Below are positions 14,163-55,500 of a DNA stretch of 64,000 bases, piece after piece; positions within the stretch are counted from its first letter, which is position 1; each line of letters begins with the position of its first letter. The stretch lies in assembly GCA_000442125.1 (NCBI GenBank), contig KE546967.1:1798001-1862000 (forward strand), read 5' to 3'. Source of the DNA: Opeltia flavorubescens (taxonomy: Eukaryota > Ascomycota > Lecanoromycetes > Teloschistales > Teloschistaceae). Below the pieces are notes generated by a model, which saw only the letters and a list, made by a program, of their open reading frames with translations, made no database searches and was not told the origin of the DNA. The translations under genes were made by a program, and so were the position numbers.

Positions 14163-14626
14163 TTTTAAAAGGGAACTAATCCTCTCACCCCCAAGAATAA
14201 CTAAAACACACTCACAGTATCACTAAAACACACCCAAGTAGATCTTTACAGAGGCCCCTACGGCGAAATAATACTCGTAATAAAATTTTGAAGAGTACAT
14301 TTTAAAGAGCTCAGCAGGCTGGATAAATGCATCTACTTTTTATTTAAAGCCGACGTTTTTTGCGCGTGTTATAGGCTGAAAACCATTCTGCGTGCCTTAT
14401 ACTAAGACTATATCCACTTAGTAAACCTTTAACCTGAAATATCTCCACAGAAAAAGCTCGGATTATTGAAATAACTGAATGTATAGACTAGGCTTACTGA
14501 GCTCTTCAAAACGTACTCTTTGGAATTTTCTCATCGGCCTTGTTGCGCTGTGTGGAGCCTTGTAAACACCTGGCTGGGTGTGTTTTAGTTATTCTTGGGG
14601 GTGAGAGGATTAGTTCCCTTTTAAAA
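14163..14626. mobile_element. Foldback / MITE-like element with long inverted arms
   Basis: The 49 bases at 14163-14211 are perfectly complementary to 14578-14626. Inside them a second pair of arms, 14282-14316 and 14495-14529, is complementary with a few mismatches. The left arm carries an extra copy of the ACTAAAACACAC motif, so the two sides differ in length between the matched blocks. No coding frame lies inside. Long imperfect inverted arms over about 460 bp without coding capacity fit a non-autonomous foldback or MITE-type transposon. I could not find a clean target-site duplication, so exact ends are uncertain. Confidence 0.7.
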
Positions 14627-14759
14627 ATGGTTCGCAATGTGAGGGCCTACGGCAGCCGCTAAACCGCCCGCCTAGACTGCCTCTTTGGGGGCGGCTTAAC
14701 CCTACTCGGGGCTAGGTTTAGCGGCTGCCGTAGGCCCTCACATTGCAAACCATTTTTAA
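14621..14759. repeat. Second hairpin, 44-bp arms, GC-rich loop
   Basis: Arms 14621-14664 and 14716-14759 pair with a single mismatch; the loop of about 50 bases is GC-rich. It shares the TTAAAA boundary with the foldback element on its left, so the two form one composite structure of about 600 bp. The right arm ends 45 bp before the start codon of the DUF4267 gene. Confidence 0.75.
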
Positions 14760-17460: not shown

Positions 17461-17496
17461 GTATCCCTTCGTGCCCCGAGAAAGCGGGATTGCGCT
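17461..17496 (+). repeat. Left terminal inverted repeat of the outer DNA transposon
   Basis: The 36 bases starting GTATCCCTTCGTGCCCCGAG are perfectly complementary to 38746-38781. TA at 17462-17463 and TA at 38779-38780 fit the TA target duplication of Tc1/mariner-pogo elements, which would leave 33-bp repeats. Unlike the interior, this sequence is GC-rich and unmutated. Confidence 0.9.
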
Positions 17497-18696
17497 AAAT
17501 ATAGATTATTTCTTAGCGATATTAGTATTTTATTTATATACCCCTAAGTATTATAAATAAACTATCTTTTATTATTTATACTATTATAATAGTTATTATT
17601 AAATAGAAAATCTTTTAAGATAATACGGGTTAATAAATAAAAAATTTCTAGTATTTTAAATAAATTACCTAAATAAATAACCGAATTTAAATACTATAAA
17701 AATAAACTTATTAAAAAGTAAATTATTAAAAAACTACTACTATTTTTAAATATATATAAACCTCTTATTATTTTTTATAAAGAGCTATAGCTATTTATAG
17801 CTATATTAGTTTTTATATAAATATAAATTATTAATTTATTAAAGCTATTTAAATTTTTTTAATTTAATAATTTTATAATATATTTAATTATATATACTAA
17901 TAAATTTATAATATATAAATTAAAAAAACTGTATAAAAAATAGTTAAAATTTTATTTCTAGTAATTAATATAGTTTATAGAAATAAGCGTTTTTTTAAAG
18001 GTTATTCTATTTAGATAAAAAACTATCTCTAGAATCTTCTATTAAATAACTAGCTAATTAGTTAAATAAAGGTATTATAGATTTTTACTAGTAAAAACGT
18101 TATTAATATATATTTATTCCTTTATATATTTAATAAACTATTTTCTATAATTATTTTAAAAAGTTTAAATGGTTTTTTAAAACTTTTAATATAAAAAATA
18201 AATTAAAAGATTTAGAATATAATAAAAGCTTCTAGAAAAAATTAAAAATTTCTATTTAATAATTTTATANCGTATTAAAATACTATATTATACTAATATT
18301 TAATATAGTTATTAATAAATAATTAATAAAATTTAAAGGTTATTTTAAATATATTATAATAATTAGCGCTAAAAAAGTAGAAAAAAGATTTAAAATCTAT
18401 TACCTATATTTTAGCGTATATTTATAAAATTTCTTTTTTATTTTTAAAGTATCTCGAGTAATTTTTATATAAATTATTAATAAATTAACCGAGATTTATT
18501 AAATAATATAAATTTTAGAGCTAAAATTTTAATCGAAGTTTAATTTTTTAGTATAAAATTAGAAGATTTCGTTTATATACTATATAGTAATTTAATTAGT
18601 AGAAACGCTATTTATTAATAATATATATATAATTTATATAAATAATTTCTTTATATATATAAAGCTCGCTAATATATTCCGCTAGCTTAATATTAA

Positions 18697-18815
18697 TATA
18701 TATAATATCTATAAAACGGGATTTGAATTTTTACCTAGACTTTTTAAACTCTATAATACTATATTTAAATAAAAAAACTAGGAATTTAAAGCTCTTACTA
18801 CTATTAACGACCAGG
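18697..18815 (+). pseudogene. Possible DDE transposase trace of the outer element
   Basis: One plus frame reads IYNIYKTGF and, about thirty codons later, EFKALTTIN. Pogo/Fot1 transposases have an Asp-Glu-Thr-Gly-Phe motif after 'YN' and a nearby strand with Glu and Ile-Asn, so the spacing is suggestive, but stops interrupt it and the composition is RIP-altered. Weak evidence. Confidence 0.25.
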
Positions 18816-19185
18816 TATTTATCTATATATAGATAGCGTCGATAAAACGGAAAACTGGCTTTTTAGTCCCGAGCGAATAACTAATGGATTTTTTAGCCCC
18901 GGTGACCCCGGGCAAGATTTTAGCGCTAAAATATATAATAGATTAGCCCGGGGCTAGCTCTAATCTAATCTATTATTAGAAAAAAAATAATAATAAAAAA
19001 AAACTAATAAAATTAATAAAAAATCGTTTTTAATTTTTTAAAAATTTTAGCGCTATAAACTAGCGCTAAATCCGTTATATCCGAATTTTTAAAAGTTCTT
19101 TTACCCCGTTATTATCTCGCTAAAGCTCTAGCGCTATAAATATCCACGCTAAATAAATATAAATATTTTTTTCGAGCGATTTAAC

Positions 19186-19480
19186 TATAATATACTAGAT
19201 ATAATTAAACCAATTCAGAAATGTAAACTATTATAGAAGAACTGCCTATAACGTATATATTTAGATATATTAAAAAACTAATTCTTGCTTTCTAGTAGAA
19301 AGTAAGGGGGATCGCTATATACCTGAAAATATATTTACTTTATACTAGATAGTAATTATTTAAATAACCCCGCTTAGACCTTTTAAAAGGCCCGCTATAT
19401 ATAATTTAATATATTATCTCTATTATATAATTTCTATCTAAAGTTTAAATATTAACTACTTTTATAGTTTAATAATAATA
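19186..19480 (-). repeat. 3' LTR of copy A
   Basis: 295 bp; aligns end to end with 37307-37601 and, as complement, with 21778-22072 and 30689-30983. Element-sense ends read TATTA...TATA where intact LTRs would have TG...CA, as RIP would produce. The best-preserved internal part contains AACCCCGCTTAG. Confidence 0.88.
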
Positions 19481-21777
19481 ATTACCTCCCTTTTTAAAAT
19501 ATTAATTTTAATATCGAGGTTTAGAAGTAATTTAAGCTATTTAGAATATTTAAATAAATATTTATTAAAAACCGTTTAAAATTTAATAGGAAAAAAAAGA
19601 AAAAAAATTATTTATAATAATACTATTAACTATAGAAATAATTATTAATTTCTATTATTTTTCTATTATTAAAATTTTATTAAGGATTTATTAAGGGCTT
19701 ACGGCGTTATATATATCTTTATAAGTAGGAAAAAAGTAAAAAAAGAATTATATTATTATTATAGTTAAAGGGGTTAAAAACTCTTTTTTATTTAATATAT
19801 AAACTTTATTTTAATATAATATAGAAAAAACTAGTTATTATACTAATAAATAAATATAAGTTTTTATAGAAATCTTCCCTTTTTTTTTTTTTACTAATTA
19901 TTATAGGTATTATAATATTTAATAGTTTATTTAATAGTAGTAAATCTATTAATAATAAAGTCTTTAGAAATATTAATAGTAAATTTTTTCTATTTTTATA
20001 TTTATTTTTTAATAAATAAAACTTTTATATAATAATTTAAAGCTTAAATAATTATTTAAATTATAAATTTAATTTAATATAAAGTTTTTACTATATAATT
20101 ATTACTTCCGCGCGTTATTAAAGGCTGCGTTTTTTAATAATAAGGTTTTATATATATTATATTAGAAAAAATATACGAGGCCTTTATATTATATATACCG
20201 CTAGAATTATAAAAATACTCGAGGTTATTTAGTAGTAAATTTACTAATATATTAATTATTCTATATTAATATTATCTAAATTCTTTATTTTATATAGCTA
20301 ATAGTATAGAAATATTTTAAATATATTTAAAAATATCTAGATACTATTTAAAAATAAAACCCTATATTTTCTATAAGTAAAAAGCTAGTAAAAATAGTTT
20401 AGAATTTTTAGACTTATAATTAAAGCGTGAACTTAATTAATAATTAAACCGATTTACTATTAATTTATAATAATAAACTTTTATATAAAACTCGCTAAAA
20501 TTTTATCGAATAGAAAAACTCTCGCTAGAAAATCTATAATTTTAAATAATAAATATATAAATTAAAATAAAAGAATAGTATATTATATATAGATCGTTAA
20601 TTATTTATATTTATAAAAGTTTATTATTTTTTTTATTTAAATTTAGATTTATTTTTTTATAGTCGAGGTTTATTTATAAATTAAAATAAAGATTTTTTTT
20701 TAAATTTTTTAGCGGGAGAGACTTTATCCTAAAATTTTAAATAATTTAATAATAGACTTTAGAAATTTTTATAAAATTAGGAATTTTATAAATAAATTTA
20801 TATATTTAGTCCCGCTCGCTTTAATAATTTTTATATAATAAGTATTCCTTTAAAAAAAAAGGAGGTCTATTTAAACGACATGGATAAAAGAAATAAAAAA
20901 AAAAAAAAAAGTCCGAATTTATAATATTTAGTAGTAATAAGGACGAATTTTTACTATATTATAATAAATTATTATTAAATTTTTTACTTTTAACTCGTTT
21001 ATTATTAATTTATAACTAGTATAATAAAATTTTATTACTAGATTTTAGTTAATTATTTTTAGATAAAATACCTTTTATAGTAGAAATAGTATTTAATAAC
21101 TAGGAATTTAGCTAATAAAATTTAATATAGCTTTTATTACTTTTTATACAACCTTTAATAATAGCCTATCTAGATCTAGTATTAGTTAATTTTTTTACTA
21201 GATCTATTATTAAACTTATATTAAAGCTTTTAATATTACTTTATATATTTTTAAAGGCCGACTTTTTTAATAACTTTATTTTAAACTAGTCGGTAGTTAA
21301 ATAGTATAAAACGGTAGCCCGTTATACTATTTAATTTTAGCGAGAACCTTATTTAGATTTAGGATAATAATCGATTTCTAGTAATAATTTAAAGAGGGTT
21401 TTAAGTAGTAGTTAAACTAATTAGAAATAGTTTATTTTTATAAAAGAGCCGGCTAGCTTATTAAATCTAATATATTTATATTTATTATACTAAATTTTAT
21501 TATTTTTTACTAATTTTTTTTAATAATTATAAAACCCGGCTTTATTAAAGCCCTTAAAATTAAATATTAAGGCGTTAATTATTATAAACTATCTTTTATT
21601 ATTTATCCAGCTAAATAACTCGTTAAAATTAAGAGTAACTCTAGATTAGATAAAAAAGTAGAAGTAATAACTATACTAGTAAACGGAGAGAATATAGCGG
21701 AAAACGGCTAATCTAGAAATATAATTTAATAAAAGATAGATATAGACCTATAATTTACTTCGGTATTATAAGCTATA

Positions 21778-22072
21778 TATTACTATTAAGTTATAGAAGC
21801 AGTTAGTATTTAGACCCCAGGTGGAAATTATATAATAGAAATAATATATTAAATTATATATAATAGGCTCTTTAAAAGACCTAAATAAGATTATTTAAAT
21901 AATTACTATTTAGTATAAAATAAATATATTTTTAAATATATAATAATCCCTTTTATTTTTTATTAGAAAATAAAAATTAATTCTTTAATATATTTAAATA
22001 TATATATTATAAATAGTTTTTTTATAATAGTTTACGCTTTTAAATTAGTTTAATTATATTTAATATATTATA
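21778..22072 (+). repeat. 5' LTR of copy B
   Basis: 295 bp, starting TATTACTATTAAG and ending AATATATTATA, immediately preceded by target CTATA. It pairs with 30689-30983. Confidence 0.9.
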
Positions 22073-25000
22073 GTTCTAATTCTTCTTTTTTATATTTAAA
22101 GGCTCGGATTATTATTAAAAATATTTATTAAAAAAGCTCGCGGTTATAATAAAAATAGAAATAATAATAATAATATAATTACTAATTTCTAGAATCTAAA
22201 TATATAATTAGAAACTATATATATAAACCTAGTAGGCGGATCTTCTAATATAGTTAGTCTAATAATTTTTTAAAACAAGCGTATTATAGAGCTATTTAAT
22301 AATATTATAAAATTATAATAAAATAGTAGTATTCTTTTAACGGAATCGATATTAGATTCTAATACTCGTTATTATAAAGGTAAAAAGTTAATGCGTAATA
22401 TAATTCTATCCCTTTTATTATTTAGTTCTAATAATAGTTATAATAATAACGATTTTTTAAATACCTTTTTAAATATATAAATAAAATAAAAAATAAAAAA
22501 TCTAAAGTATAAAATAAAAAGGGTTATTAAATATATTTATCGTTTTAAAAAAGCTAGAATAGTTTATTAATAAATTTAAACGATATTTTAAGAATTTTAT
22601 ATATTTATTAATATATTTATATTTATTATTCTATTTATTAATATTAAACCTTTTATTATTATAAAATTAAAAAATATTAAGCTAGCTCTTTTATTAAATT
22701 ATTTATTAAAAGATAACTTTACTAGCTATTAAATATAAATATTATAAACGAATATAATATTTAAATTATTATAAAATTCGTTTTTAATAAATAAAATAAA
22801 AATCTAGTTTATTATACTATTATTAAAGGGTAACCCTTTAATATAATAAACTTAATATATAAAAATAAATAGAATTAATATAGACTAGCCTAATTTTTAT
22901 AAATAATTACTTAATTTTTTATTAAATAAAAAAAGCTAATCTTTAAACTCCTTATCGAAGTATTATATATTAAAATAGAGTATAATAATATTATAGAAGC
23001 TTTATAATTAAATAAAAGCGTTTAAAAATTAGTTATTAGAATTATTAAAAAAATAATATATAATAAATTTTATTATAAAACTTAAACGTGATATTTAAAC
23101 GCTAATATATTAATTTAAATATATACCTAAAAATAAAATAAAAAATAAATAAATAGCTTTAATAACTTATATAAAAAGTATTATAAAAGGTATTAATATA
23201 AATACCTTCTATAAAAAGCTTTTTACTTTAAATTAAAGTAGTTAAAATAGTTAAATTTTAAAAAAACTTTATAATAGTTGTACGGGGGATAAATAAAAAT
23301 ATAATAATTATAAACTTTATAATAGGCGTTTTATAGAATTAAAAAGTAATAAAAATATTAATTTAAAAAATTTAAATTAAATAGAATATTATAATTATTA
23401 TAAAAAGAGTTATTATTTTATTAATTATTTTTATATAAAAAAATTAATAAAGAAAGTATCTATTAAAAATACTAAATCTAGCGCTAATAAAGATTTTAAT
23501 ATAGCTTTAAAAAATAATTAAATTTAAATAAAGTTTTAATATTTAAACGTTATTTAATTAAAGTAATAAAAAAAATTAAAATAGTATTTTAATTTTATAT
23601 AAATAATTAAATTAGGAAAGCTTTTATACTATTAAATATAGGGTTAAATATTAATTATATCTCGTAAATTAAAATAGTAGAATAAAATTTTATTTTAATA
23701 AATACTAGTTATTTTATATTAAACTAGCTTTAAAATTAGTAGTATTATTATTATAAAACTTATAATTTTAAATAGACCTATATTAATAGCTAGAATATAG
23801 AATAAATAATTTCTATTATTTTTTTCTATATTATTAATTTAAATAAATATAATATAATTTTAAATATTTTAAAAATTTATAAAGCTAGCCTATTTATTAA
23901 TATATAGGTTATAAAATAGCGTTTTTTTATTAAAGTTAATCGAATATAAATAAACTATTTATAAATTTTTAGATAATTCTTTAAAGTATACTTTATTATA
24001 TATATTTTAATAATATTAATAGTAAAAAATCTAATCGATATTAATAATATAAAAATTCTATATTAAATTAAGAGCTTTAAATTTATATTTTCCGTAGTAA
24101 AATTAAATAAATTACTTTAGTTAAAATCTAGTAATTATATTATTAATCTAATAAAAGGTAAAAAATCGTTATATAAATTAATATATAATCTATTAAATAA
24201 CGAGTTAAAGAAATTACATCGATATTTTAAAAAAACTTTTAAAAAAGGCTGGATTTAATATTTAGTCTTGTCTATAAAAGCTTTTATTCTATTTATATTA
24301 AAGAAGAATAATAAATTATATTTATATATAAATTACTATAGTTTAAATATAATAATAATTAAGAATCGATATCCGCTTTTATTAATTATTAAAACCTTAA
24401 ACCGTTTATATAATATAAAAAGATTTATAAAAATAGATATATATAATATTTATTACTAAATTAGAATTAAGTAAAAAGATAAATAGAAGATAGTATTTTA
24501 TATTAGATATAAGTATTTTAAATATTTTATTATATTTTTTAATTTAATAAATATTTTTATAACCTTTTAAATATATATTAATAAAACGTTAATAGGAATA
24601 ATTAATATTTTTTATATAGTATATTTAAATAATATTTTAGTATATTTAAATTTTAAAAAAGAATATTAAAAGTATATTTATATAATTCTACGCCGATTCC
24701 GTAAATATTAGTTATTTTTAAATTTAAAAAAATATATATTTAATATAGAATAGCTAGAGTTTCTAGAATATATTATATTATTTAAAAAAGTAGAAATAGA
24801 TTTTAAAAGGATAAATATAGTTTAGAATTAACCTATTTTAAAATTATATAGAAATATTTAGGTATTTTTAGGCCTAATAAATTTCTATTAGCGATTTATT
24901 AAATATTATTCGAAAATTATAACGCCTATAATTAATTTATTAATTAGTATAAAAAATAGTAAAAAACTAGAGCTATTAAAATAGAATAATACTATTTAAA

Positions 25001-27400
25001 AAGCTTTTAAAAAGTTAAAAAAAGCTTTTATTATAGTACTATTACTAAAATATTTCGATTTAATATATAAAATTTAAATTAAAATAGATATTTTAAATTT
25101 TAATATTTTTAATATTATAATTTAACTAAATAATAATAGTATTTATTATTTAATAGCTTTCTAGTTAAAAAAAATAATAATAACTAAATAAAGTTATAAA
25201 ATTTATAATTAAAAGTTATTTATTATTATTAAAATCTTTAAATAATAGCAGTACTATTTTAAAAAAGCTTAATATACTATTAAAATATAATTATATTATA
25301 ATAATTTAAAGGGATTTATATATATTAAATAATTTAATAGTAAATAATAATGTTAAATTATAAAATTAATAACTATAAATTTTAAAATTTTCTATTAAAT
25401 TAGGAAATTAAATTTAGTAGATTCTTTATTAAAAAAATTAAATTATTAAAAAGTTAATCTTAAAATTTTAATAATAATACTTATATTATAATAAAAACTA
25501 TTTTTTATTAATAATATATTATTTATATTAATAGTAGTAAAAAAAATAAAAATAATATATTTACGTAAAAAATATAAAAAAAAATTTAAAAAATTTTTAT
25601 TAAAGGCTAACGCCTTTAAAAAATTTAATAGTAATCTACTAGTTTAAAAGTCTTATAGTATATTAGCGTTAATAATATTTTATAAAAGCCCTATTAAAAG
25701 CCTTTTAAAAGAAGATTTACCTTTTAATAGAAAAAATATAATAAATTTTACTATTAGAATAGTTAATTATAAATAGCACGTTTTATACTAGATAATAAAG
25801 GATACTATTTCTAATAAAATAACTTATAATAGTAGTTTAATAAATATAAAAAAAATAATTTTATAGTTTTAATAAAATAATAATCTTATTATTACTAGAA
25901 AATATAATATTAAAAACGTTTATAAAAAGAATTTTAAATATATAAAAGCTAAATTATAAAATTTAAAAATAGAAGGTAAATTACTATTCTATAGGTTTTT
26001 ATATATTCTAAAAAATTTTATTATTTATATAAAGTTTATAATAAAACGTTATAATAACCTTTTAACTAAATATTTTAAAGTAAAGCGGATAATAAAGCTA
26101 TTTTACTATTAATATTAATAATTTAACTTAAATAAAAAGATTAAAAAATATATATAGATATATAATATTTATTAATATATAAAAGTATACCGGTATAAAC
26201 CGTATAATAAACTATAGTTCCTTTTTATTTTTAATAATCTATACTAAAAAATTATTTTAGATTTTATAACGGGATTACTATTATCGAAATACCGTATAGA
26301 TATAGTTAATACTGTATTAGTAATAGTAGATTAGTATTTAAAAATAGCTATATATATTTTATATATAAAAATAATTAATATAGTAGAATTTATAAACTTA
26401 TTCTTTAAAATAGTAATTTATAAAAAAATTATATTAAAAAGTATTATTAGTAATAAAGGCTTATTATTTATAAATAAATTCTAGTCTAAAATCTACTACT
26501 ATTTAAAAATAAAAAGGAAGTTAAATATTACTTTTTATTTATAAATAAATAAATAAATAAAACGCTAAAACTAGTTATTAAAATACTATTTTTAGATCTA
26601 TTTAAATAAAAAGTAGTTAAATTAAACGAAGATTTTTCCTATTATAGAATTTATATATAATAATAGTATTTATTCTACTATAAATAAAATATTATTTTTT
26701 TTAATAACCGGGGTATATCCGGATTTAAAATTTAATATTATAGATAACGTTTTTAAAAAAAAGGCCTATAAAGCTAGTATACTAGCGGTAAAAAAATATA
26801 TAAAGAAATTAATAGAATTATATAAAAAGCTAAACTAAAAATAGTAAAAAATATAAAAAAAACAGGCGAAATACTATAATTATTTCTATATAGATATAAA
26901 ATTTAATTTAAATAATATAATATTCCTATTATTAAAGAATTTAAAGCTAAAGAAATTATTTAAAAAATTTATTTATTATTATATTAAATTATATTATATT
27001 AAAAAATATATTAATTTCTAAATATATAAACTATTATTACCGCTTAATTTATATATTTATAATATTTTTTATATTTTTTTACTAAAAAAGTATTAATAGA
27101 GGAAAAAATAAAAGGTTTTTTAATATTTACTTTTAGAGCTTATAGATAATAAACTAGAATAGAAAATAAAAATAATTTTAAATAAATATATTAAAAGATT
27201 TAAAGGTAAAATAGAATAATATTTAATTAGTTAAATAGGTTAATTAACGAAATATAATTTATAATAGCCGAAATTAGATTTAATAAATATTAAAAATTTA
27301 ATAAAAAAGTTTAATTAAAGCTATAAAGAACTATTAAAAAAATATAAAAGAAAAAACTAAATATTTTAATTATACTAACCGCTATTTTTTTTAAAACCTT
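22073..27400 (+). pseudogene. gag-pol relic of copy B, RIP-inactivated
   Basis: A gag zinc knuckle with spacing C-x2-C-x4-H-x4-C survives at 23387-23428, but all four ligand codons read Tyr, exactly what TGT-to-TAT and CAT-to-TAT give. Reverse transcriptase is visible at 24268-24459 (KKNNKLYLYINYYSLN, then IKNRYPLLLI). Its catalytic box at 24622-24633 reads Y-L-N-N where active enzymes have two aspartates. The integrase core near 26255-26360 reads ILDFITGLLLSKYR and later VLVIVD followed by a stop. A chromodomain remnant lies at about 27180-27305 (FKGKIE...YLIS...LTKYNL). In-frame TAA/TAG are frequent throughout. A retrovirus-like aspartic protease may lie near 23620-23665 (ILLNIG). Gag borders are not resolved. 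Confidence 0.82.
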
Positions 27401-30400
27401 TAATAGGCCTTTTATAAATCTAGATAATATTATATTTAAATAAAAAATAAATATAGAAAAAAATAATATAAATAATAAAATTTATATTAAATTTCTAAAA
27501 GTTAATTAATTTATTTAAAAAAAATTTATTAAATATAAATTAAAAATAAATTTAAAATAATAAATAAAATTTATTAAATTAAAATTTAAATTTATTTAAT
27601 AAAATAAATATTTATTAATAATTATATTTTATTTAATTTTTTTATATTATATTTTTATATATTATTTTATAATTTACTATATTCTTTTATTTTATAATTT
27701 ATTATACTTCTTTATTTTATAATCTACCGCGTTTTTTTATATTAATAAACTTTTAGTTTATTTTTTTATATTAGCCTTATTAATTAATAAAATTTTATTA
27801 ATAACTTTATTAGTAGTTATACAGCGATAAAAAATAGTATTTTTTTTAAAAATTTTTAATATTTTAGAAGTTTTAAATATTTTTAGAGTTTTTAAAAATT
27901 TTAAAGCTTTTTTTATAATATTAAATAGACTTATTTTATTAATAAAATAGATAATTTAAAGGATAAAAATTTTATATTAAAAGTTTTTTTTTTTTTATTA
28001 TATATATCTTTTTTTATATTTCTTTTATTAATATTTTTATTAATAATTTATTTTTTTTATTAGTATTTTTATTAATAGTTTATTTCTTTTATTAATATTT
28101 TTATTAATAGTTTACTACTAATTTAATATAAAGAAAAATTAGTAATTATAAAAATATTATTAATATTAAAAATTTAAAAAAACTAATAATTAAAATAGTA
28201 TTATTTAATTAAAAAAGTAGTATTTAATTTATTTCTTTTTCTTTAAAAATATTATTTAATTTATTTCTCTTTTTTTTAAAATACTATAGCCGAAGTTTTT
28301 AAAATATTATAGCCGAAGCCGTTTTTTATTACTATACTAATTTTTATATATTCTGGACTAATTTAAAGGCGATAAAGCGGAATATAGATCTATAGCTTAT
28401 AATATTAAAGTAAATTATAGATTTATATCCACCTTTTATTAAATCGTATCCCTAAATTAGCCGCTTTCTACTATACTCTCTCTACTCGTTAATATAACTA
28501 TTACTCCTACTCTTTTATTTAATCCGAAATCGCTTTTAGTTCTAATAGATTATTTAGCTAGGTAAATAGGAAAAAACAGCCTATAATAATTAACGCTTTA
28601 ATATTTAATTCTAGGGGTTTTAATAAAACCAGGTCTTATAATTATTAAAAAAAGTTAATAAAAAATAATAGAATTTAGTATAATAAATATAAATATATTA
28701 GATTTAACGGGCTAGCCGGCTCTTTTATAAAAATAAACTATTTCTAATTAATCTAGCTACTACTTAAAACCCTTTTTAAATTATTATTAAAAACTAATTA
28801 TTATTTTAAATTTAGATAAGGTTTTTATTAGAGCTAAATAATATAATAGGCTACCGTTTTATACTATTTAGCTAATAATTAATTTAAAACGAAATTATTA
28901 AAGAAGTCGGCCTTTAAAAATATATAGGATAATATTAAAAGCTCTAGTATAAATTTAATAATAGATTTAATAAAAAAATTAACTAATATTAAATCTAAAT
29001 AAGCTACTATTAAAAATTATATAGAAAGTAATAAAAGCCGTATTAAATTTTATTAATTAAATTTTTAATTATTAAATACCGCTTTTATTATAAAAAATAC
29101 TTTATTTAAAGGTAATTAATTAAAATTTAATAGTAAAATCTTATTATACTAGCTATAAATTAATAATAAATAAGTTAAAAGTAATAAATTTAATAATAAT
29201 TTATTATAATATAATAAAGGTTTATTCTCATCGCTATTAAATATTATAAATTTAGACCCTTTTTTTTTTTTTTTATTTTTTTTATCCACGCCGTTTAAAC
29301 GGATCTTCTTTTTTTTTAAAAAAATATTTATTATATAAAAGCTATTAAAGTAAGCGGGATTAAATATATAGATTTATTTATAAAATTCCTAATTTTATAA
29401 AAGCTTCTAAAATTTATTATTAAATTATTTAAGACTTTAAAATAAAGCTTCTCTTATTAAAGAATTTAAAAAAAAATTTTTACTTTAATCTATAAATAGA
29501 TTTCGGCCGCGAAAGAATAAACCTAAATTTAAGTAAAAAAAATAATAAACTTCTATAGATATAAATAATTAATAATTTATATATAATATATTATTTTTCT
29601 ACTTTAACTCGCGTATTTATTGTTTAAAATTATAGATTTTCTAGTAAAAGTCTTTTTATTTAATAAAATTCTAGTAGATTTCGCGTAAAAGTTTATTATT
29701 ATAAATTAGTAATAAATTAGTTTAGTTATTAATTAAATTTACGTTTTAGCTATAAATTTAAAAATTTCGAGCTATTTTTACTAGCTTTTTATTTATAGAA
29801 AGTATAAGGTTCTATCTTTAAATAATATCTAAATATTTTTAAATATATTTAAAATATTTTTATATTATTAGCTATATAAAGTAAAAAATTTAGATAATAT
29901 TAATATAAAATAATTAATATATTAATAAACTTACTATTAAATAATTTTAAGTATTTTTATAATTCTAGTAATATATATAATATAAAAGCTCTATATACTC
30001 CTTTTAATATAATATATATAAAATTTTATTATTAAAAAATATAGTTTCTAATAATATACGGAAATAATAGTTATATAGTAAAAGTTTTATATTAAATTAA
30101 ATTTATAATTTAAATAATTATTTAAGCTTTAAATTATTATATAAAGGTTTTATCTATTAAAAAATAAATATAAAAGTAGAAGAAACTTATTATTAATATT
30201 TTTAAAAATTTTACTATTAATAGATTTACTATTACTAGATAAACTATTAAATATTATAATACTTATAATAACTAGTAAAAAAGAAAAAAAAAAAGATTTC
30301 TATAAAAGCCTATATTTATCTATTAGTATAATTACTAGCCCCTTTTATATTATATTAAAATAAAGTTTATATATTAAATAAAAAAAAGTTTTTAACCCTT

Positions 30401-30688
30401 TTAATTATAATAATAATATAACGTTTTTTTTATTTTTTTTTTATTTATAAAAATATATATAATATTATAAACCTTTAATAGGCCTTTAATAAAATTTTAG
30501 TAGTAGAAAAATAATAAAAACTAATAACTATTTTTATAATTAATAGTATTACTATAAATAACTTTTTTTTTTTTTTTTTTTATTAGGTTTTAGACGGTTT
30601 TTAATAAATATTTATTTAAATATTTCGAATAATTTAAATTACTTTTAAACCTTAATACTAAGGTTAATATTTTAAAAAAAAAGGTAAT
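27401..30688. other. Long tail between pol and 3' LTR of copy B
   Basis: About 3.3 kb separate the chromodomain from the 3' LTR. Its counterpart in copy A is at about 30989-31990 and 19481-21772, in mirror orientation, so the tail belonged to the parent element. It is AT-rich, CpA/TpG-poor and has no open frame. A stretch on the minus strand near 28480-30600 contains scattered GC-rich codon-like islands, so an extra antisense or third reading frame is possible but unproven. Confidence 0.6.
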
Positions 30689-30983
30689 TATTACTATTAA
30701 ATTATAGGAATAGTTAGTATTTAGACTCTAGGTAGAAATTATATAATAGAGATAATATATTAAATTATATATAGCGGGCTTTTTAAAGGGTTTAAATAGG
30801 GTTATTTAAATAATTACTATTTAATATAGGGTAAATATATTTTTAAATATATAACAATCCTTTTTATTTTCTACTAGAAAGTAAAAGTTAATTCTTTAAT
30901 ATATCTAAATATATACGCTATAGGCAGTTTTTTTATAGTAATTCACGCTTTTAAATTGGTTTGATTATATTTAATATATTATA
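30689..30983 (+). repeat. 3' LTR of copy B
   Basis: 295 bp, ends AATATATTATA followed by CTATA. It pairs with 21778-22072. It retains slightly more G/C than the other LTRs. Confidence 0.9.
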
Positions 30984-31989
30984 CTATAGATCTATATTTC
31001 GCCTTATCGCCTTTAAATTGGTCCAGGATACGTAAAGATTAGTATAGTAATAAAAAACAGCTTCGGTTATAATATTTTAAAGACTTTAGTTATAGCGTTT
31101 TAAAAAAAAGAAAAATAAATTAAATAATATTTTTAAAAAGGAAAAAATAAATTAAACGCTGTTTTTTTAATTAAATAATATTATTTTAATTACTAATTTT
31201 CTTAAATTTTTAATACTAATAATATTTTTATAATTATTAATTTTTTTTTATACTAAATTAGTAGTAAACTATTAATAGAAATATTAATAAAGGAAATAAA
31301 CTATTAATAGAAATATTAATAAAGAAAATAAACTATTAATAAAAATATTAATAAAAGAAATATAAAAAAGAATATATATAATAAAAAAAAAGGAACTTTT
31401 AATATAAAATTTTTATTTTTTAAATTATCTATTTTATTAATAAAATAAGTTTATTTAATATTATAAAAAAGGTTTTAAAATTTTTAAAAACTTTAAAAAT
31501 ATTTAAAACTTTTAAAATATTAAAAACTTTTAAAAAAAATACTATTTTTTATCGCTATATAGCTATTAATAAAGTCGCTAATAAAGTTTTATTAATTAAT
31601 AAGATTAATATAAAAAGGTAAATTAAGAGTTTATTAATATAAAAAAACGCGGTAGATTATAGAATAAAAAAATATAATAAATTATAAAATAAAAAAGTAT
31701 AATAAATTATAGAATAATATATAAAAATATAATATAAAAAAATTAAATAAAATATAACTATTAATAAATATTTATTTTATTAAATAAATTTAAATTTTAA
31801 TTTAATAAACTTTATTTATTATTTTAAATTCGCTTTTAATTTATATTTAATAAATTTTTTTTAAATAAGCTAATTAATTTTTAAAAATTTAATATAAATT
31901 TTATTATTTATATTATTTTTTTTTATATTTATTTTTTATTTAAATATAATATTATTTAAATTTATAAAAGGCCTATTAAAAGCTTTAAA

Positions 31990-34900
31990 AAAAATAGCGG
32001 CTAATATAATTAAAATATTCAACTTTTCCTTTTATATTTCTTTAGCGGTTTTTTATAATTTTAATTAAATTTTTTTATTAGGTTCCCGGTATTTATTAGA
32101 TTTAATTTTAATTATTATAAATTATATTCCTTTAATTAATTTACCTAGTTAATTAAATATTATTTTATTTTACCTTTAAATCCTTTAATATATTTATCTA
32201 AAATTATTTCTATTTTCTATTTTAGTTTATTATTTATAAGCTCCGGAAGTAAATATTAAAAAATTTTTTATTTTTTCCTTTATTAATATTTTTTTAGTAA
32301 AAAAATATAAAAGATATTATAAATATATAAACTAGATAGTAATAGTAGCCTATATATTTAAAAACTAATATATTTTTTAATATAATATAATCCGGTATAA
32401 TAATAAATAAGTTTTTTAAATAATTTTTTTAGTTTTAAATTTTTTAATAATAGAAATACTATATTATTTAGACTAAATTTTATATCTATATAAGAATAAT
32501 TATAATATTTTATCTACTTTTTTTATATCTTTTATTATTTTTAGTTTAACTTTTTATATAATTCTATTAATTCCTTTATATATTTTTTTACTACTAATAT
32601 ACTAGTTTTATAAGCTTTCTTTTTAAAAATATTATTTATAATATTAAATTTTAGGTCCGAATATATTTTAATTATTAAAAAGAATAATATTTTATTTATA
32701 ATAAAATAAATATTATTATTATATATAAATTCTATAATAAAAAGAATTTTTATTTAATTTAATTATTTTTTATTTAAATAGATTTAAAGATAGTATTTTA
32801 ACGATTAGTTCTAATATTTTATTTATTTATTTATTTATAAATAAAAAATAGTATTTAATTTTTTTTTTATCTTTAAATAGTAGTAGATTTTAAATTAGAA
32901 TTTATTTATAAATAACGAGCCTCTATTATTAATAATACTTTTTAATATAATTCCTTTATAAATTACTATTTTAAAAAATAGATTTATAAATTTTACTATA
33001 TTAATTATTTTTATATATAAAATATATATAACTATTTTTAAATACTAGTTTATTATTATTAATATAGTATTAATTATACCTTTATAGTATTTTAATAATA
33101 ATAATCCCGTTATAAAATCTAAAGTAATTTTTTAATATAAACTATTAGAAATAGAAAAAAACTATAGTTTATTATACGGCTTATATTAGTATATTTTTAT
33201 ATATTAGTAAATATTATATATCTATATATATTTTTTAATCTTTTTATTTAGGTTAAGCTATTAATATTAGCGGTAAAGTAGCTCTATTATTTATTCTATT
33301 TTAAAATATTTAGTTAAAAGGTTATTATAATATTTTATTATAAACTTTATATAAATAACGGAATCCTTTAGAATATATAGAAATTTATAAAATAATAATT
33401 TACTTTTTACTCCTAAACTTTATAATCCGGCTTTTATATATTTAGAATTTTTTTTATAAACATTTTTAATATTATATTTTCTAATAATAATAAAATTATT
33501 ATCCTATTAAAATTATAAAATTATTTTTTTTATATTTATCGAGCTACTATTATAAACTATTTTACTAAAAATAGTATCTTTTATTATTTAATATAAAATA
33601 TATTATTTATAACTAGCTATTCTAATAATAGAATTTATTATATTTTTTTTATTAAAAAGTAAGTCTCCCTTTAAAGGGCCTTTAATAGAGTTTTTATAGA
33701 ATATTATTAACGCTAATATACTACGAGACTTTTAAACCAGTAGGCTACTATTAAATTTTCTAGAAGCGTTAATCTCTAATAAAAGTTTTCTAAACTTTTT
33801 TTTATATTTTTTATATAAATATATTATCTTTATTCTTTTTATTACCGCCGGTATAAATAATATATTATTAATAAAAAATAGCTTCTATTATAATATAAAT
33901 ATTATTATTAAAGTTTTAAAATTAATTTTTTAATAATCTAATTTTTTTAATAAGAAATCTACTAAATTCGATTTTTTAATTTAATAAAAGATCTCGAAAT
34001 TTATAATTATTAATTTTATAATCTAGCGCTATTACTTATTATTAAATTATTTAATATATATAAATCCTTTTAAATTATTATAATCTAATTATACTTTAAT
34101 AGTATATTAGGCTTTTTTAAAATAATACCGCTATTATTTAAAAATTTTAATAATAGCGAGTAGCTTTTAATTATAAATTTTATAGCTCTATTTAGCCGTT
34201 ATTATTTTCTTTAACTAGAAAGCTATTAGATAGTAAATATTATTATTATTTAATTAAATTATAATACTAAAAATACTAAAATTTAAAGTATTTATTTTAA
34301 TCCAAATTTTATATATTAAATTAAAATATTTTAGTAATAGTACTATAGTAAAAGCTTTTTTTAACTTTTTAAAAATTTTTTAAATAGTATTATTCTATTT
34401 TAATAGCTCTAGTTTTTTATTATTTTTTATACCGACTAATAAATTAGTTATAAGCGCTATAATTTTTAAATAATATTTAATAAATCGCTAATAGAAATTT
34501 ATTAGGCCTAGAAATATTTAAATATCCCTATATAATTTTAGAATAGATTAATTTTAAACTATATTTATTTTTTTAAAGTCTATTTTTATTCTTTTAAATA
34601 ATATAATATATTCTAGGAATTTTAGCTATTTTATATTAAATATATATTTCTTTAAATTTAAAAATAATTAATATTCGCGGAGTCGGTATAAAATTATATA
34701 AATATATTTCTAGTATTTTTTTTTAGAATTTAAATATATTAAAATATTATTTAAATATATTATATTAAAAATATTAACTATTTCTATTAACGCCTTATTA
34801 ATATATATTTAAAAGGTTATAGAGGTATTTATTAAGCTAAAAAATATAATAAAATATTTAAAATACTTATATCTAATATAAAATATTATTTTTTATATAT

Positions 34901-37306
34901 CTTTTTATTTAATTCTAATTTAATAATAGATATTATATATATCTATTTTTATAAATCTTTTTACGCTATATAAATAATTTAAGGTTTTAGTAATTAATAG
35001 GAGCAGATATTAATTTTTAATTATTATTATATTTAAACTAGAGTAATCTATATATAAGCGTAATTTATTATTTTTTTTTAGTATAAATAGAATAAGAGCT
35101 TTTATAAACGAGATTAAATATTAGATCTAGCTTTTTTTAAAAGTTTTTTTAAAATATTAATATAATTCCTTTAATTCGTTATTTAATAGATTATATATTA
35201 ATTTATATAATAACTTTTTATTTTTTATTAAATTAATAGTATAATTATTAAATTTTAATTAAAGTAATTTACTTAATTCTACTATAAAAAATATAGGCTC
35301 GAAGCTTTTAATCTAGTATAGAATTTTTATACTATTAATATTAACTAGATCTTTTACTATTAATACTATTAAAGTATATATAATAAAATATATTTTAAAG
35401 GATTATCTAAAAATTTATAAACGGTTTATTTATATTTAATTAATTTTAATAGGAAAACGCTATTTTATAATCTATATATTAATAAATAGGCCAGTTTTAT
35501 AAATTTTTAAAATATCTAAAATTATATTATATTTATTTAAATTAATAGTATAAAAAGAAGTAATAGAAATTATTTATTTTATACTCTAGCTATTAATATA
35601 AGTCTATTTAAAATTATAAATTTTATAATAGTAATACTACTAATTTTAAAGCTAGTTTAATATAGAATAACTAATATTTATTAAAGTAAAACTTTATTCT
35701 ACTATTTTAATTTATAAAATATAATTAATATTTAATTTTATATTTAATAATATAGAAATCCTTTTAATTTAATTATTTATATAGAATTAAAATATTATTT
35801 TAATTCTTTTTATTATTTTAATTAGATAATATTTAAATATTAAAGTTTTATTTAAACTTAATTATTTTTTAAAGCTATATTAGAATTTTTATTAGTATTA
35901 AATTTAGTATTTTTAATAAATACTTTTTTTATTAATTTTTTTATATAGAGGTAATTAATAAAATAATAATTTTTTTTATAGTAATTATAATACTCTATTT
36001 AATTTAAATTCTTTAAATTAATATTTTTACTACTCTTTAATTCTATAAAAGGCCTATTATAGAGTTTATAATTATTATATTTTTATTTATTTTCTATACA
36101 ACTATTATAAGGCTTTTTTAAAACTTAACTACTTTAATTATTTTAGTTTAAAGTAAAAGGCTTTTTATAGAGGGTATTTATATTAGTACCTTTTATAATA
36201 TTTTTTATATAAGTTATTAAAGTTATTTATTTATTTTTTATTTTATTTTAAAATATATATTTAAATTAATATATTAATATTTAAATATTATATTTAAATT
36301 TTATAATAAAATTTATTATATATTATTTTTTTAATAATTTTAGTAACTAATTTTTAAACGTTTTTATCTAGTTATAAAACTTTTATAATATTATTATATT
36401 TTATTTTAATATATAATACTTTAATAAAGAGTTTAAAGATCGGCTTTTTTTATTTAATAAAAAATTAAGTAGTTATTTATAAAAATTAGGCTAGTTTATA
36501 TTAATTTTATTTATTTTTATATACTAAATCTATTATATTAAGGGGTTACTTTTTAATAATAGTATAATAAACCGGATTTTTATTTTATTTATTAAAAATA
36601 AATTTTATAATAATTTAAATATTATATTTATTTATAATATTTATATTTAATAGCTAGTAAAGCTATTTTTTAGTAAATAATTTAATAAAAAGGCTAGCTT
36701 AATATTTTTTAGTTTTATAATAATAGAAGGTTTAATATTAATAAATAAAATAATAGATATAAATATATTAATAAATATATAAAGCTTTTAAAGCGTCGTT
36801 TAAACTTATTAATAAACTATTTTAATTTTTTTAAAATAATAAATACGTTTAATAGCCCTTTTTATTTTATATTTTAAATTTTTAATTTTTTATTCTATTT
36901 ATACGTTTAAAGAGGTATTTAAAAAATTACTATTATTATAGTTATTATTAGAATTAAATAATAAAGAAAATAAAATCGTATTATATATTAACTTCTTATT
37001 TTTATAATAATAAATATTAAAACCCGGTATTAGCTTTATTAAAAAAATACTACTATTTTATTATAATCCCGCAACGTTATTAAATAATTTTATAATACGT
37101 TTATCCTAAAAAATTATTAAATTAATTATATTAAAAAATCCGTCTACTAGATTTATATATATAATTTCTAATTACGTATTTAAATTCTAGAAATTAGTAA
37201 TTATACTATTATTATTATTTTTATTTTTATTATAACCGCGAGCTTTTTTAATAAATATTTTTAATAATAATTCAGGCTTCTGAATATAAAAAAAAAAAAT
37301 TAAAAT
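31990..37306 (-). pseudogene. gag-pol relic of copy A, RIP-inactivated, mirror of copy B
   Basis: Positions mirror copy B about a sum of roughly 59,379. The reverse-transcriptase segment falls at about 34920-35111 and the chromodomain at about 32075-32200. Minus-strand translation shows the same motif order but stops are everywhere. No frame above about 60 codons survives. Confidence 0.75.
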
Positions 37307-37601
37307 TATAATATATTAAATATAATTAAATTAATTTAAAAGCGTAAACTATTATAGAAAAACTATTTATAATATATATATTTAAATATATTAAAGAATT
37401 AATTTTTATTTTTTAATAAAAAATAAAAGAAATTATTATATATCTAAAAATATATTTATTTTATACTAGATAATAATTATTTAAATAACCCCGCTTAGGT
37501 TTTTTAAAGGGCCCGCTGTATATAATTCAATATATTATCTCTATTATATAATTTCTACCTGGGGTTCAAATACTAACTGCTTTTATAGTTTAATGGTAAT
37601 A
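37307..37601 (-). repeat. 5' LTR of copy A
   Basis: 295 bp, followed at 37602-37606 by the TTAGC half of the target duplication. Near 37541-37601 it keeps CCTGGGGTTCAAATACTAAC, the least mutated version of that stretch among the four LTRs. Confidence 0.88.
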
Positions 37602-37724
37602 TTAGCGAAATTATATACGCGTATTAATTCGGCCGATTATTATAAACGTTAATAGATATAATATATTATTATTATTATTATCTATTATTAAAACTTTTAT
37701 TAAAGTATTTTTTTTATACTAATA

Positions 37725-37911
37725 AGCGCTAGCCGCCGTATAGAACGCCCGGGGCGCCTATAACGTTCTTAAGTTGGCCCCGGCGGCTCCGGGCAGGCCC
37801 CGGGCGGCAGCGCGTTGGCCCCGGGTATTATAGGGCCTGGTTTGTGGACTCCTGGCCCCTAGGATTTTAGCTGGCCCGGGGCGCCCAGAAATCGTTTCCT
37901 ATTTTGCCGAC
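37725..37911. other. GC-rich island inside the AT block
   Basis: About 185 bp dominated by GGCCCCGG-type runs, with several surviving CpA and TpG, sits between AT-rich arms of the outer transposon. A weaker GC-rich patch with CCCCGGTGACCCCGGGC lies at 18820-18965, on the other side of the retroelement stack. No coding frame is apparent. Confidence 0.7.
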
Positions 37912-38745
37912 GAGATAATAACGTAATATAATTTATAACTATTATTTACTTTTTTAAATAATTTAACGAATAGTATACTAAAAGTACTATAAAGCGCCGG
38001 AATCTTCCCTAATAAATACTATATATAGGCTACTTATAAATCCTAAGACTAATCTATATATATAATATATATATAAATAGTATTAATTCTAATATATAAC
38101 TATAAGCTAGTTATATATATAAATAGATAGTTTATTATTACTAGATCCCCCTATTAATTTAATTATTAAAAGTTTTACTAATTAATATTTATATCTTTTA
38201 TAAACTTTTAAATAATAGTATTAGTAAATCTATAAATTATTTTAAATTCTATTATTAAATTATTATAAAATTATTTAAAAATTTAAATAATAGATTAAAA
38301 AAATATATTATTAATTTATTTACCGCTTTAAAACTTCGTTTTAATAAAATTACTATATAATTTTAATATATTCTAATCTATCTAGAAAATAAAAAATTAT
38401 ATATATTATATAAATATAATAAATAGTAGCGAATAAAAGTATTTAAATATTTAAAATAATATATACTAGCTTTTATTAATTTAAATAAACTAGTTAAAAA
38501 AATAAAAATTTATTATATTACGTTAAAAGTTATATATATATATAGTAAAATGCTATATAAGCGATATAAATAATTAGATATATATATTAACTATAAAAAT
38601 TAGAAGAATATACAGCAAAAATTATAGTAATTACTATATAAAATTTCTAGTATTTTTATCCCTATTCTTTATCCAACGAATTTACAGCTAAATAAAGCCT
38701 TCTAATTGGCTAAAAAGTGCCAAGCTTTAGTAGCCGCACCCTGCT

Positions 38746-38781
38746 AGCGCAATCCCGCTTTCTCGGGGCACGAAGGGATAC
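38746..38781 (-). repeat. Right terminal inverted repeat of the outer DNA transposon
   Basis: Perfect complement of 17461-17496, with TA at 38779-38780. From about 38640 rightward CpA and TpG reappear, so RIP fades just inside this end. Confidence 0.9.
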
Positions 38782-52548: not shown

Positions 52549-55500
52549 ATGACAAGCGAGCCACGATCCTCTGCTTCATACGCATACTATTCCTTTCCTC
52601 CAACCCCGAATAGAGCATCCCCCTCTTCCAGTTCTAAGACCACCTCTCCTCAAACTCCGACCCCGAGTGCGAGGAAACCCAATCCAAAAGAACCTAGCCC
52701 GTCTCCCCAAACAGGGCGCACGTCGAAAAGTATGGCACCATCACCAGCAGCAGGTAAGGGCGCCAGCAACCCACCAAAGACGCCAACCAAACTGGGAAAA
52801 AATCCTGCATCAAGTGCTACTCCAAAGTTGGGCCAATCATCAAAGGCAGCCGACACCCCTAAAAATACTGCAAAATCGGCTACTGAAACCCCTAAATCTG
52901 GTGCCAAAGGTGCCGTAGGCAAAGCGCAGAGCGCAGCGCCTTCAAAACCTACCGGCTCACCTAAGCTACCGCCAAGACCCCAGGGTGGTGCACAAAAAGC
53001 AATGGGCGCCGCGGGAAAAGCACCTGAAGCTGCGGAGAAAGCAAAAGGCAAAGCCGAGGATACCGCCGAAGATACCAAATCAAAAGCAGAAGAAAAGAAA
53101 GGCGGCATTGATCTTCAAGACAATGATCCTGCCAACGAAGCCGATAACGAAGGCGAAACTCCAGGCGGCAAAGTCAGCCAGACCGGCAACGAGACACAAG
53201 AAGAAAGTTCCGCCGTCTCCACATCGAACGAAGATGATGGCGATGGTCTTTCCGAAGCAGTTCCAAATCCTGTTGACGATGATGATGATGACAACGACAC
53301 CGTCGAAGGCGCTAAAGACACATCGCAAGATGACACTGACGCTACTGAGGAGGTCGGTGGTGCTGCAAACGGTGCCACTGGTGCCCTGGGTGGTGTGGCC
53401 GACAAAGCCAAGGACACGACAGGCAAAGTCCAAGATACCGCTGAGGACGCGGCTGAAGGGGACGTAGAAGGGGCTGCTGAAGGTGCAAAAGACACGGCAG
53501 AAGACACCGCTGAAGGTGCCAAGGATACCGCTGATGGCGCCGCGGATGATGCTAAAGATGCGGTACCTGATGAAGCCAATGGTGTTGCCGATCAAGCCAA
53601 AGACACCGCCGATGGCGCCGTTGACGAAGCAAAAGACACCGCCGAAGATGCTGCAGACGGTGTTGAAGACACAGCTGAGGGCGCTGCGGATGGTGTTGAA
53701 GACGCAGTACCTGATGAAGTTGATGGCGCCGTTGACGAAGCCAAAGATACTGCTGAAGGCGCCGCCGAAGACTTACCAGTAGATCTATCTGTCCTCAAGG
53801 GACTTGAAGTCGGCGAAGACGGAAAGGTTCTCAATGCAGATGGTGAACAAATAGGCCAACTCGACGAAGGTGACGCAGAAGACCTTGCCGGCAAGACTAT
53901 TGGTGATGACGGAGAAATCCTCGACGAAGACGGAGACGTCATTGGCCGTTGTAGTGTTCTTCCAGATAAAGCTCAAGAGCTCGCAGACCAAACCAAAGGT
54001 GGCCTTCCCGAAATAGGCGCTCTGGAGGGCTTGGAGGTTGGTGATGGTGGAAACATCATGGGCCCCGACGGCACTGCAATCGGTAAACTCGTCGAAGGAA
54101 ATCCCGGTGATCTAATTGGCAAGACCTTGAATGAGAAAGGAGAAATCATTGATGAGGACGGCGACGTCGTCGGTCGAGCAATGGTTGTTCCTGGTATCGA
54201 TATTCTTGACGGCCATGAAATCGGAGAAGATGGAAAGATCTTCAACCAGGAAGGCGAAGTCATCGGACAACTTACCGAGGGCGACGCAGAACAGCTGGCC
54301 GGTCAGAAAATAAATGATGCAGGTGAAATCCTTGACGAAGATGGCGACGTCATCGGTAGAGCAGAGGTCATTCCACCAGGAGTCGAAGACATGCTTGACG
54401 GAGTCAAGGAAGATGTAGAAGACGCGGCCGAGGATGCTGTACCCAGCATTACACCTGATTTGTCTATCCTTGAGGGCAAGAAAGTAAACAAAAAGGGCAA
54501 GATTCTCGATGAAGAGGGCGAACCAATTGGCCAGCTTACCGAAGACTCTGACATGAAAGCATGCGCCGGGAAAACACCCAATGAGAACGGTGAAATCCTC
54601 GACAAGGACGGCAACGTTATTGGTAAAGTCGAAGTTGTTCCTGGAGAAGCTGCCGATGAAGCGATGAAAGCATTGCATCCAGAGCTGCTCGAACAAGTTG
54701 AGGATGAAGCCCCAGAAGTCCCTGAAATCACCCCAGACTTCTCTATTTTGGAAGGCCTCAAAGTGAACAAGAAGGGACAAGTTCTTAATGAGGAAGGTGA
54801 ACCTATCGGCCAACTCGTGGAAGGTGAGGCCTCCGAATGCGCTGGAAAGAAAATCAACGAAAATGGCGAGATTCTTGACAAGGACGGCAATGTCATTGGC
54901 AAGGTCGAAGTCATTCAGGGCGAAGCTGCCGATGAAGCCATGAAAGAGCTTCATCCGGAGCTTTTGGAGAAAATCGAAGAGGCTGCCCAAGATGCCGTCA
55001 CACCAGATCTATCCATCCTTGAAGGTCTCAAGGTCAACAAGAAAGGTGAAGTCATCAACGAGGATGGAGATGTCGTTGCGAAACTTGCTGAAGGTGAGCT
55101 CGACGCTGTCAAAGGCAAGAAGATCAACGATAAAGGCGAGATTCTTGACGCTGAAGGCAATGTCATTGGAAAAGTTGAACTCGTCCCACAAGAAGGCGAG
55201 GAGGAAGCTACTCCCGAAGTCAATCCTCTATCCATCTTAGAAGGTCTCAAAGTCAACAAGAAAGGAGAAGTAGTCAACGCAGACGGAGATGCTATCGCCA
55301 GGGTCGTGGAGGGTGAGCTTGATGATGTGAAAGGCAAGAAGGTCAACGGCCAGGGCGAGATCCTCGATGACGAAGGAAATGTCATCGGAAAGGTCGAGCT
55401 CATTCCTGAAGAAGGCGAAGAGGAGGATACCGGTCCTGAACTTCCTCCGCTGTCGATCTTAGAAGGTCTCAAGTGCAACAAATATGGTTCCATCGTAGAC

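Follow-up and report, generated by a model that had tools for sequence, protein, structure and literature searches.

What insertion history lies behind the AT-rich interval of some 21 kb that separates two gene regions in this window (the 64,000-nucleotide stretch analyzed as a whole), and how many elements took part in it? The original prediction saw a three-layer nest, in which a transposon with inverted ends and TA target duplications brackets two chromovirus copies, one inside the other, and it took the whole interval to be a single insertion site that grew by reinsertion. We conclude, with a probability of about 94%, that the structure consists of four transposable-element layers nested at one intergenic site: a transposon of PiggyBac type (a label taken from its sister copies elsewhere in the genome), which received a 655-bp element, which received LTR retrotransposon A, which received LTR retrotransposon B. 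As to the host, the best named relative of a window protein comes from Gyalolechia ehrenbergii (87%), with Caloplaca, Xanthoria, and others next (among the 120 of 1464 relatives listed). Gyalolechia belongs to Teloschistaceae, a family of lichen fungi, and we place the ascomycete that carries the nest near this family. The layers and their junctions are as follows.

17462..18836, + strand: layer 1, left part of the outer PiggyBac-type transposon (1375 bp, ending with the AG of the layer-2 target; 82% to the C9 copy)
17462..17497, + strand: left 36-bp terminal inverted repeat, beginning TATCCC, perfectly matched by the right end
18835..18836: AG, left copy of the 2-bp target duplication of layer 2
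18837..19185, + strand: layer 2, left half of the 655-bp inverted-repeat element, with the CGTCGA... end (89% to the 646-bp element within the C21 transposon)
19181..19185: TTAAC, left target duplication of A (4 of 4 printed sister elements carry the unoccupied site TTTAGCTAAA)
19186..37601, - strand: layer 3, LTR retrotransposon A with B inside it (18,416 bp; 9205 bp without B and one CTATA)
19186..19480, - strand: left LTR of A (295 bp)
21773..21777: CTATA, left target duplication of B (B itself shows the site unoccupied, as AAGCTATAGATC)
21778..30983, + strand: layer 4, LTR retrotransposon B (9206 bp)
21778..22072, + strand: left LTR of B (295 bp)
30689..30983, + strand: right LTR of B (295 bp)
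30984..30988: CTATA, right target duplication of B
37307..37601, - strand: right LTR of A (295 bp)
37602..37606: TTAGC, right target duplication of A
37607..37912, + strand: layer 2, right half of the 655-bp element, with the ...GCCGACG end (85% to the 646-bp element within the C21 transposon)
37913..37914: AG, right copy of the 2-bp target duplication of layer 2
37913..38780, + strand: layer 1, right part of the outer transposon (868 bp, starting with the second AG; 77% to the C9 copy, 86% to the C21 copy)
38745..38780, - strand: right 36-bp terminal inverted repeat, a perfect match to the left end

Comparison of the window with itself recovers a perfect 37-bp inverted repeat (17461–17497 and 38745–38781). 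Its outermost G/C pair is not common to the other copies and lies outside the element ends, which leaves the predicted perfect ends of 36 bp (TATCCC...GCGCTA), a form common to five other copies. The coordinates of A and B and their 5-bp duplications (TTAAC/TTAGC and CTATA/CTATA) hold to the base. The LTRs are of equal length (all four 295 bp), can be aligned without gaps in six of six pairings, and stand in pairs between matching target duplications, as is typical of LTR retrotransposons, so the prediction survived this comparison. Recomputing the lengths gave exactly the values claimed earlier, that is, 9206 bp for B, which lies on the strand opposite to A, and 9205 bp for A once B and one CTATA are removed. 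With all layers counted, 2241 + 2 + 655 + 5 + 9205 + 5 + 9206 bp gives 21,319 bp, the exact end-to-end length of the nest.

What the original prediction overlooked is the fourth layer, between the outer transposon and A. If there were only three layers, the arms at 18.8–19.2 and 37.6–37.9 kb would be part of the outer transposon, inside whose inverted ends they do lie, and the coordinates given at first reading are right. However, the sister copies at C9, C10, and C23 are 2248–2249 bp long and align with each other end to end, and the uninterrupted C9 copy (C9:478996–481244, 2249 bp) is continuous across the site, with no counterpart of 18837–19185 and 37607–37912. The arms instead belong together as the two halves of one 655-bp element, which has inverted ends of CGTCGG type and whose family has 24 matches genome-wide (including the two window halves), one of them a 646-bp copy elsewhere in the C21 sister transposon (C21:578309–581197), at a position different from that of the window element. 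Judged by these sequence comparisons, the continuous copies rule out a nest of only three layers, and we give that reading essentially no chance. It is also very improbable that the nest is an assembly artefact made of collapsed or chimeric repeats. AT-rich repeats are easily misjoined, and there is an N at position 18270, but exact target duplications at three nested junctions, together with an exact length sum, are unlike what misjoins produce.

The order of the insertions can be read from sites that are still unoccupied elsewhere in the same genome. For layer 2, the unoccupied site is in the C9 copy of the outer transposon; aligned with the window sequence reduced to one AG, it is ungapped over 38 bases with five differences, all of them transitions (C9 has AA). 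The unoccupied target of A (GATTTAGCTAAA) is found in the C21 copy and in three further sister elements (4 of 4 printed), and the unoccupied target of B is carried by copy B. Because all three inner insertions thus have their unoccupied sites, the order is fixed as outer transposon, 655-bp element, A, and B, and the predicted sequence of TIR transposon, A, and B was right. Growth of a single site by reinsertion likewise stands for the three inner steps. A search for a further empty site of the outer family, made with the joined flanks of the C21 copy, returned only the flanks of that copy.

The history that we propose would therefore have four steps. A PiggyBac-type DNA transposon of 2241 bp would have inserted between genes, and a 655-bp inverted-repeat element would then have entered it, duplicating 2 bp. 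Next, an LTR retrotransposon of chromovirus type (A) would have entered the 655-bp element with a 5-bp duplication, and B, from the same retrotransposon family, would have entered A on the opposite strand. Transposase and integrase presumably acted at these steps, and A and B may have been nearly identical at the time of insertion.

The 655-bp element is too small to encode a transposase, which would thus have come from elsewhere. An end-motif scan of the 24 family loci paired both ends in 11. In seven of these, the ends are of CGTCG type or slightly altered, and identical pairs of bases stand on either side (TA in five, one of which is the C21 copy, TT in one, and CT in one); in the remaining four, a shorter TCGG/TCGA end adjoins TATA. 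The window element is flanked by AG on both sides.

Copies A and B are likely of chromovirus type, by homology to a related element at C10. Profiles for reverse transcriptase (RT), chromodomain, and integrase zinc finger scored no match in A or B themselves. In the element at C10, a match to RT (73.6 bits) is followed by one to the integrase zinc finger (30.6 bits) and, ∼2.9 kb past the start of RT, by one to the chromodomain (31 bits); the pieces with RT and chromodomain match A and B in collinear order at 76%–80%. The chromodomain piece matches B 27100–27346 and A 32033–32279 (76.5%), although neither copy has a chromodomain or integrase match of its own. Pieces that contain RT, taken from two copies of the family, match B 24237–24847 and A 34532–35142 at 84%–87%, and RVT_1 is assigned to A and B by homology only. 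It is the collinear homology to the C10 element, for both RT and chromodomain, that supports the class predicted earlier, while the domains themselves went undetected in A and B. The order of domains over ∼2.9 kb, the 5-bp duplications, and the LTR pairs resemble those of fungal chromovirus-type Ty3/gypsy elements; A and B are set apart from these by their length (9.2 kb), their 295-bp LTRs, and the ∼3.6 kb (LTR included) downstream of the chromodomain position in B. The family has at least 40 near-full-length LTR matches, including both LTRs of B (40 of 107 candidates scored). Stops occur in 38 of the 40 RVT_1 matches among those listed, and a 2202-codon open frame without stops has RT and integrase zinc-finger matches (C12:982041–982499 and C12:983598–983753).

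Without its inserts, the outer transposon is 2241 bp long, and the C21 sister has the same length once its 646-bp insert and 2 bp are subtracted. The suggested search for other copies of the terminus (35-base end pattern, up to three mismatches) returned seven matches in 34.4 Mb, of which the window accounts for two, and none with a reversed control, so the pattern is beyond chance. We considered six copies as two-ended, namely those in the window and at C21, C9, C10, and C23, and a 354-bp derivative at C16, and excluded a C19 copy (one end) and C3:960925 (damaged). The C16 derivative (C16:934079–934432) has both ends and no space for a transposase, and is thus a short non-autonomous form. A further six copies are 69%–73% like the body of the outer transposon, with matches ending before its ends and a shared extra 213–222 bp at the same place. 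They are located as follows.

C10, 8.6–10.8 kb: body-like copy
C16, 0.4–2.7 kb: body-like copy
C21, 27.7–30.1 kb: body-like copy
C6, 1884–1886 kb: body-like copy
C15, 1465–1468 kb: body-like copy
C11, 1677–1679 kb: body-like copy

At least four of these six begin within 30 kb of a contig end, suggesting subtelomeric duplication.

The PiggyBac label comes from the sister copies; the PF13843 profile scored no match in the window copy. In two sister copies, PF13843 matches with 131.1 and 98.6 bits, across seven and six internal stops. A read-through of the C10 copy matches it with 134.8 bits over profile positions 1–349. When the pieces of the C23 copy were searched separately, two scored above the cut-off of Pfam; one more, correctly placed in the order, fell short of it (E 0.045). 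The C10 read-through has four database relatives at 22%–34% identity (7995 candidates scored), with which the aspartates of its DE, DNFF, and GGVD motifs align; these are three conserved Asp, which we take to be the catalytic DDD triad. One of the relatives, P0121 (34% identical to the C10 transposase), matches piggyBac (PDB 6x67) at 2e-14 and piggyBat (9c0f) at 3.5e-12, and these two and the C10 transposase have three conserved Asp in the same order. A PDB search with a 110-aa piece gave no match. The one Tc1/mariner profile tested genome-wide, DDE_1 (PF03184), was rejected as the outer transposase, since its sole match (C3:1544227) is in no copy. PiggyBac elements are already recorded for the lichen fungus Umbilicaria (PMC8773270).

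How the outer element chooses its target is a separate question. The PiggyBac superfamily is known for TTAA. All six two-ended copies have TA outside TCCC...GGGA at both ends, and neither TTAA nor a longer repeat flanks any of them, so that the TTAA target duplication characteristic of PiggyBac is absent from these six. This sets them apart from piggyBac itself, which is described as using TTAA (PMC7351741). The closest counterpart in the descriptions consulted is Ti-tr1 of Tuber indicum, a 2,351-bp insertion with a PF13843 transposase, 52-bp inverted ends, and TA at both ends (PMC3864998). Compared by description, with the sequences unaligned, Ti-tr1 is like the outer transposon in its PF13843-type transposase, its long inverted ends, and its TA rather than TTAA at both ends. 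It differs from the outer transposon in the length of the ends (36 bp here) and of the element (2241–2249 bp here); several copies of the outer family bear damage of the type left by repeat-induced point mutation (RIP), and the reading frame at the one genic copy, C23 (below), favors a TATA that was split with no net duplication.

The original prediction called the TAs target duplications. They are indeed present at both ends, but their origin by duplication is unproven, and it disagrees with the reading frame at the genic copy at C23 (C23:94205–96453). This copy, whose CpA is near expectation (0.93), interrupts a DUF676/esterase-like host gene that is open on both sides (DUF676 Pfam match E 0.0022, below the cut-off); among the named relatives of the gene, Caloplaca and allied fungi lead. 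We tested original sites of zero to four bases. With TATA restored, the gene aligns without gaps over 227 residues to its best relative, P0001, with a score of 926; with one unknown base the score is 908, and with TA, none, or three bases it is 150–152 (TA 152). The frame is thus kept by one base or by any four, TATA being suggested by the two TAs, and TA as the original site breaks it, so a TA duplication there would need an extra frameshift. This is a test at one site, with a poorly conserved stretch adjoining. The C10 copy is flanked by open frames of 121 and 107 codons that would require a multiple of three bases between the flanks, at odds with both TATA and TA; as these frames have no Pfam match and are unsupported as coding, we set them aside.

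Two readings of these ends are possible, and we hold each to be somewhat doubtful. The outer element may act like Tc1/mariner, duplicating TA whatever its transposase; the TA that borders each of the six two-ended copies on either side, the lack of a longer repeat outside them, and the TA duplications described for the truffle PiggyBac-like element (PMC3864998) are in favor of this. Against it are the transposase profile, which is PF13843 rather than DDE_1, and the C23 gene, which at this one site loses its frame with one TA and keeps it with TATA. Tentatively, the element could instead belong to an ascomycete PiggyBac lineage that no longer uses TTAA and opens TATA mid-site, leaving TA on each side without net duplication. 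Such a split of TATA at C23 is a lead drawn from the frame comparison. If true, it would mean a changed cleavage geometry in a superfamily noted for 4-base duplication, and the genic C23 copy is a place for testing the target rule. The outer transposon is, besides truffle Ti-tr1, a further ascomycete case in which a PiggyBac-type transposase goes with TA ends.

Base composition in the nest is strongly altered. GC is 12%–18% in the outer transposon, A, and B (15% in the left outer part) versus 47%–48% in the 2-kb flanks; observed/expected CpA is 0.05–0.07 in A and B versus 1.05–1.11 in the flanks, and TpA/ApT is 1.23–1.34 versus 0.63–0.70. CpA loss occurs in all four layers. It is weakest in the 655-bp element, whose halves have 0.14 and 0.29 of the expected CpA and 30% and 46% GC, so the notion that this element had escaped RIP was dropped. 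Because the 655-bp parts and the right outer arm (CpA 0.19) are less depleted, and the 655-bp parts GC-richer, RIP was not uniform. An alignment of 8615 bases between the interiors of A and B shows 1115 transitions and 14 transversions, and the four LTRs differ by transitions only. The C10 and C9 copies of the outer transposon, one with 45% GC and the other with 23%, differ by 501 transitions and one transversion in 2245 bases. C-to-T differences between A and B affect 61% of CpA, 60% of CpG, 48% of CpT, and 42% of CpC; as they are spread over the four contexts, the CpA preference is more visible in the depletion than in the differences that remain.

The signs by which RIP is recognized in repeats (C-to-T transitions, CpA depletion, and TpA gain) are thus all found here, and we infer that RIP, a fungal defence that mutates repeats, was the agent of the mutations in the nest. 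RIP acts in the CpA context (PMC12543289), and a moderate level (5%–9%) is given for Gyalolechia flavorubescens in PMC7882544. It would have put C-to-T changes across the layers, which would explain why the LTR pairs differ by 14%–17% without transversions and why no open frame of 75 codons or more overlaps 17400–38800. The A pair is 83.1% identical (50 transitions, no transversions, no gaps) and the B pair 86.4% (40 transitions, no transversions, no gaps). The larger divergence of A agrees with the order of insertion, although RIP makes this weak support, and divergence without a single transversion is a warning against LTR dating under RIP.

Nested transposons marked by RIP are a common kind of structure, and the outer element is mildly unusual. 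AT-rich nested blocks of RIP-competent ascomycetes have nesting, low GC, and CpA depletion in common with this nest, and nothing essential differs; here the order of insertion is traceable step by step. With unoccupied sister sites in the same genome for three of the four insertions, the nest is a clean worked example.

Elsewhere in the window, 14163–14214 and 14575–14626 form a 52-bp inverted pair (one mismatch) adjoining a foldback of ∼140 bp (14621–14759), and 14163–14759 probably represents two more small inverted-repeat elements. Most other repeat families from the self-comparison were discarded as AT-rich chance matches by appearance (judged by eye). A 1512-codon frame at 52549–57087 carries DUF3659 units, at least four of them, in the first part of its length, and contains a tandem repeat with a 219-bp period (55008–55481).
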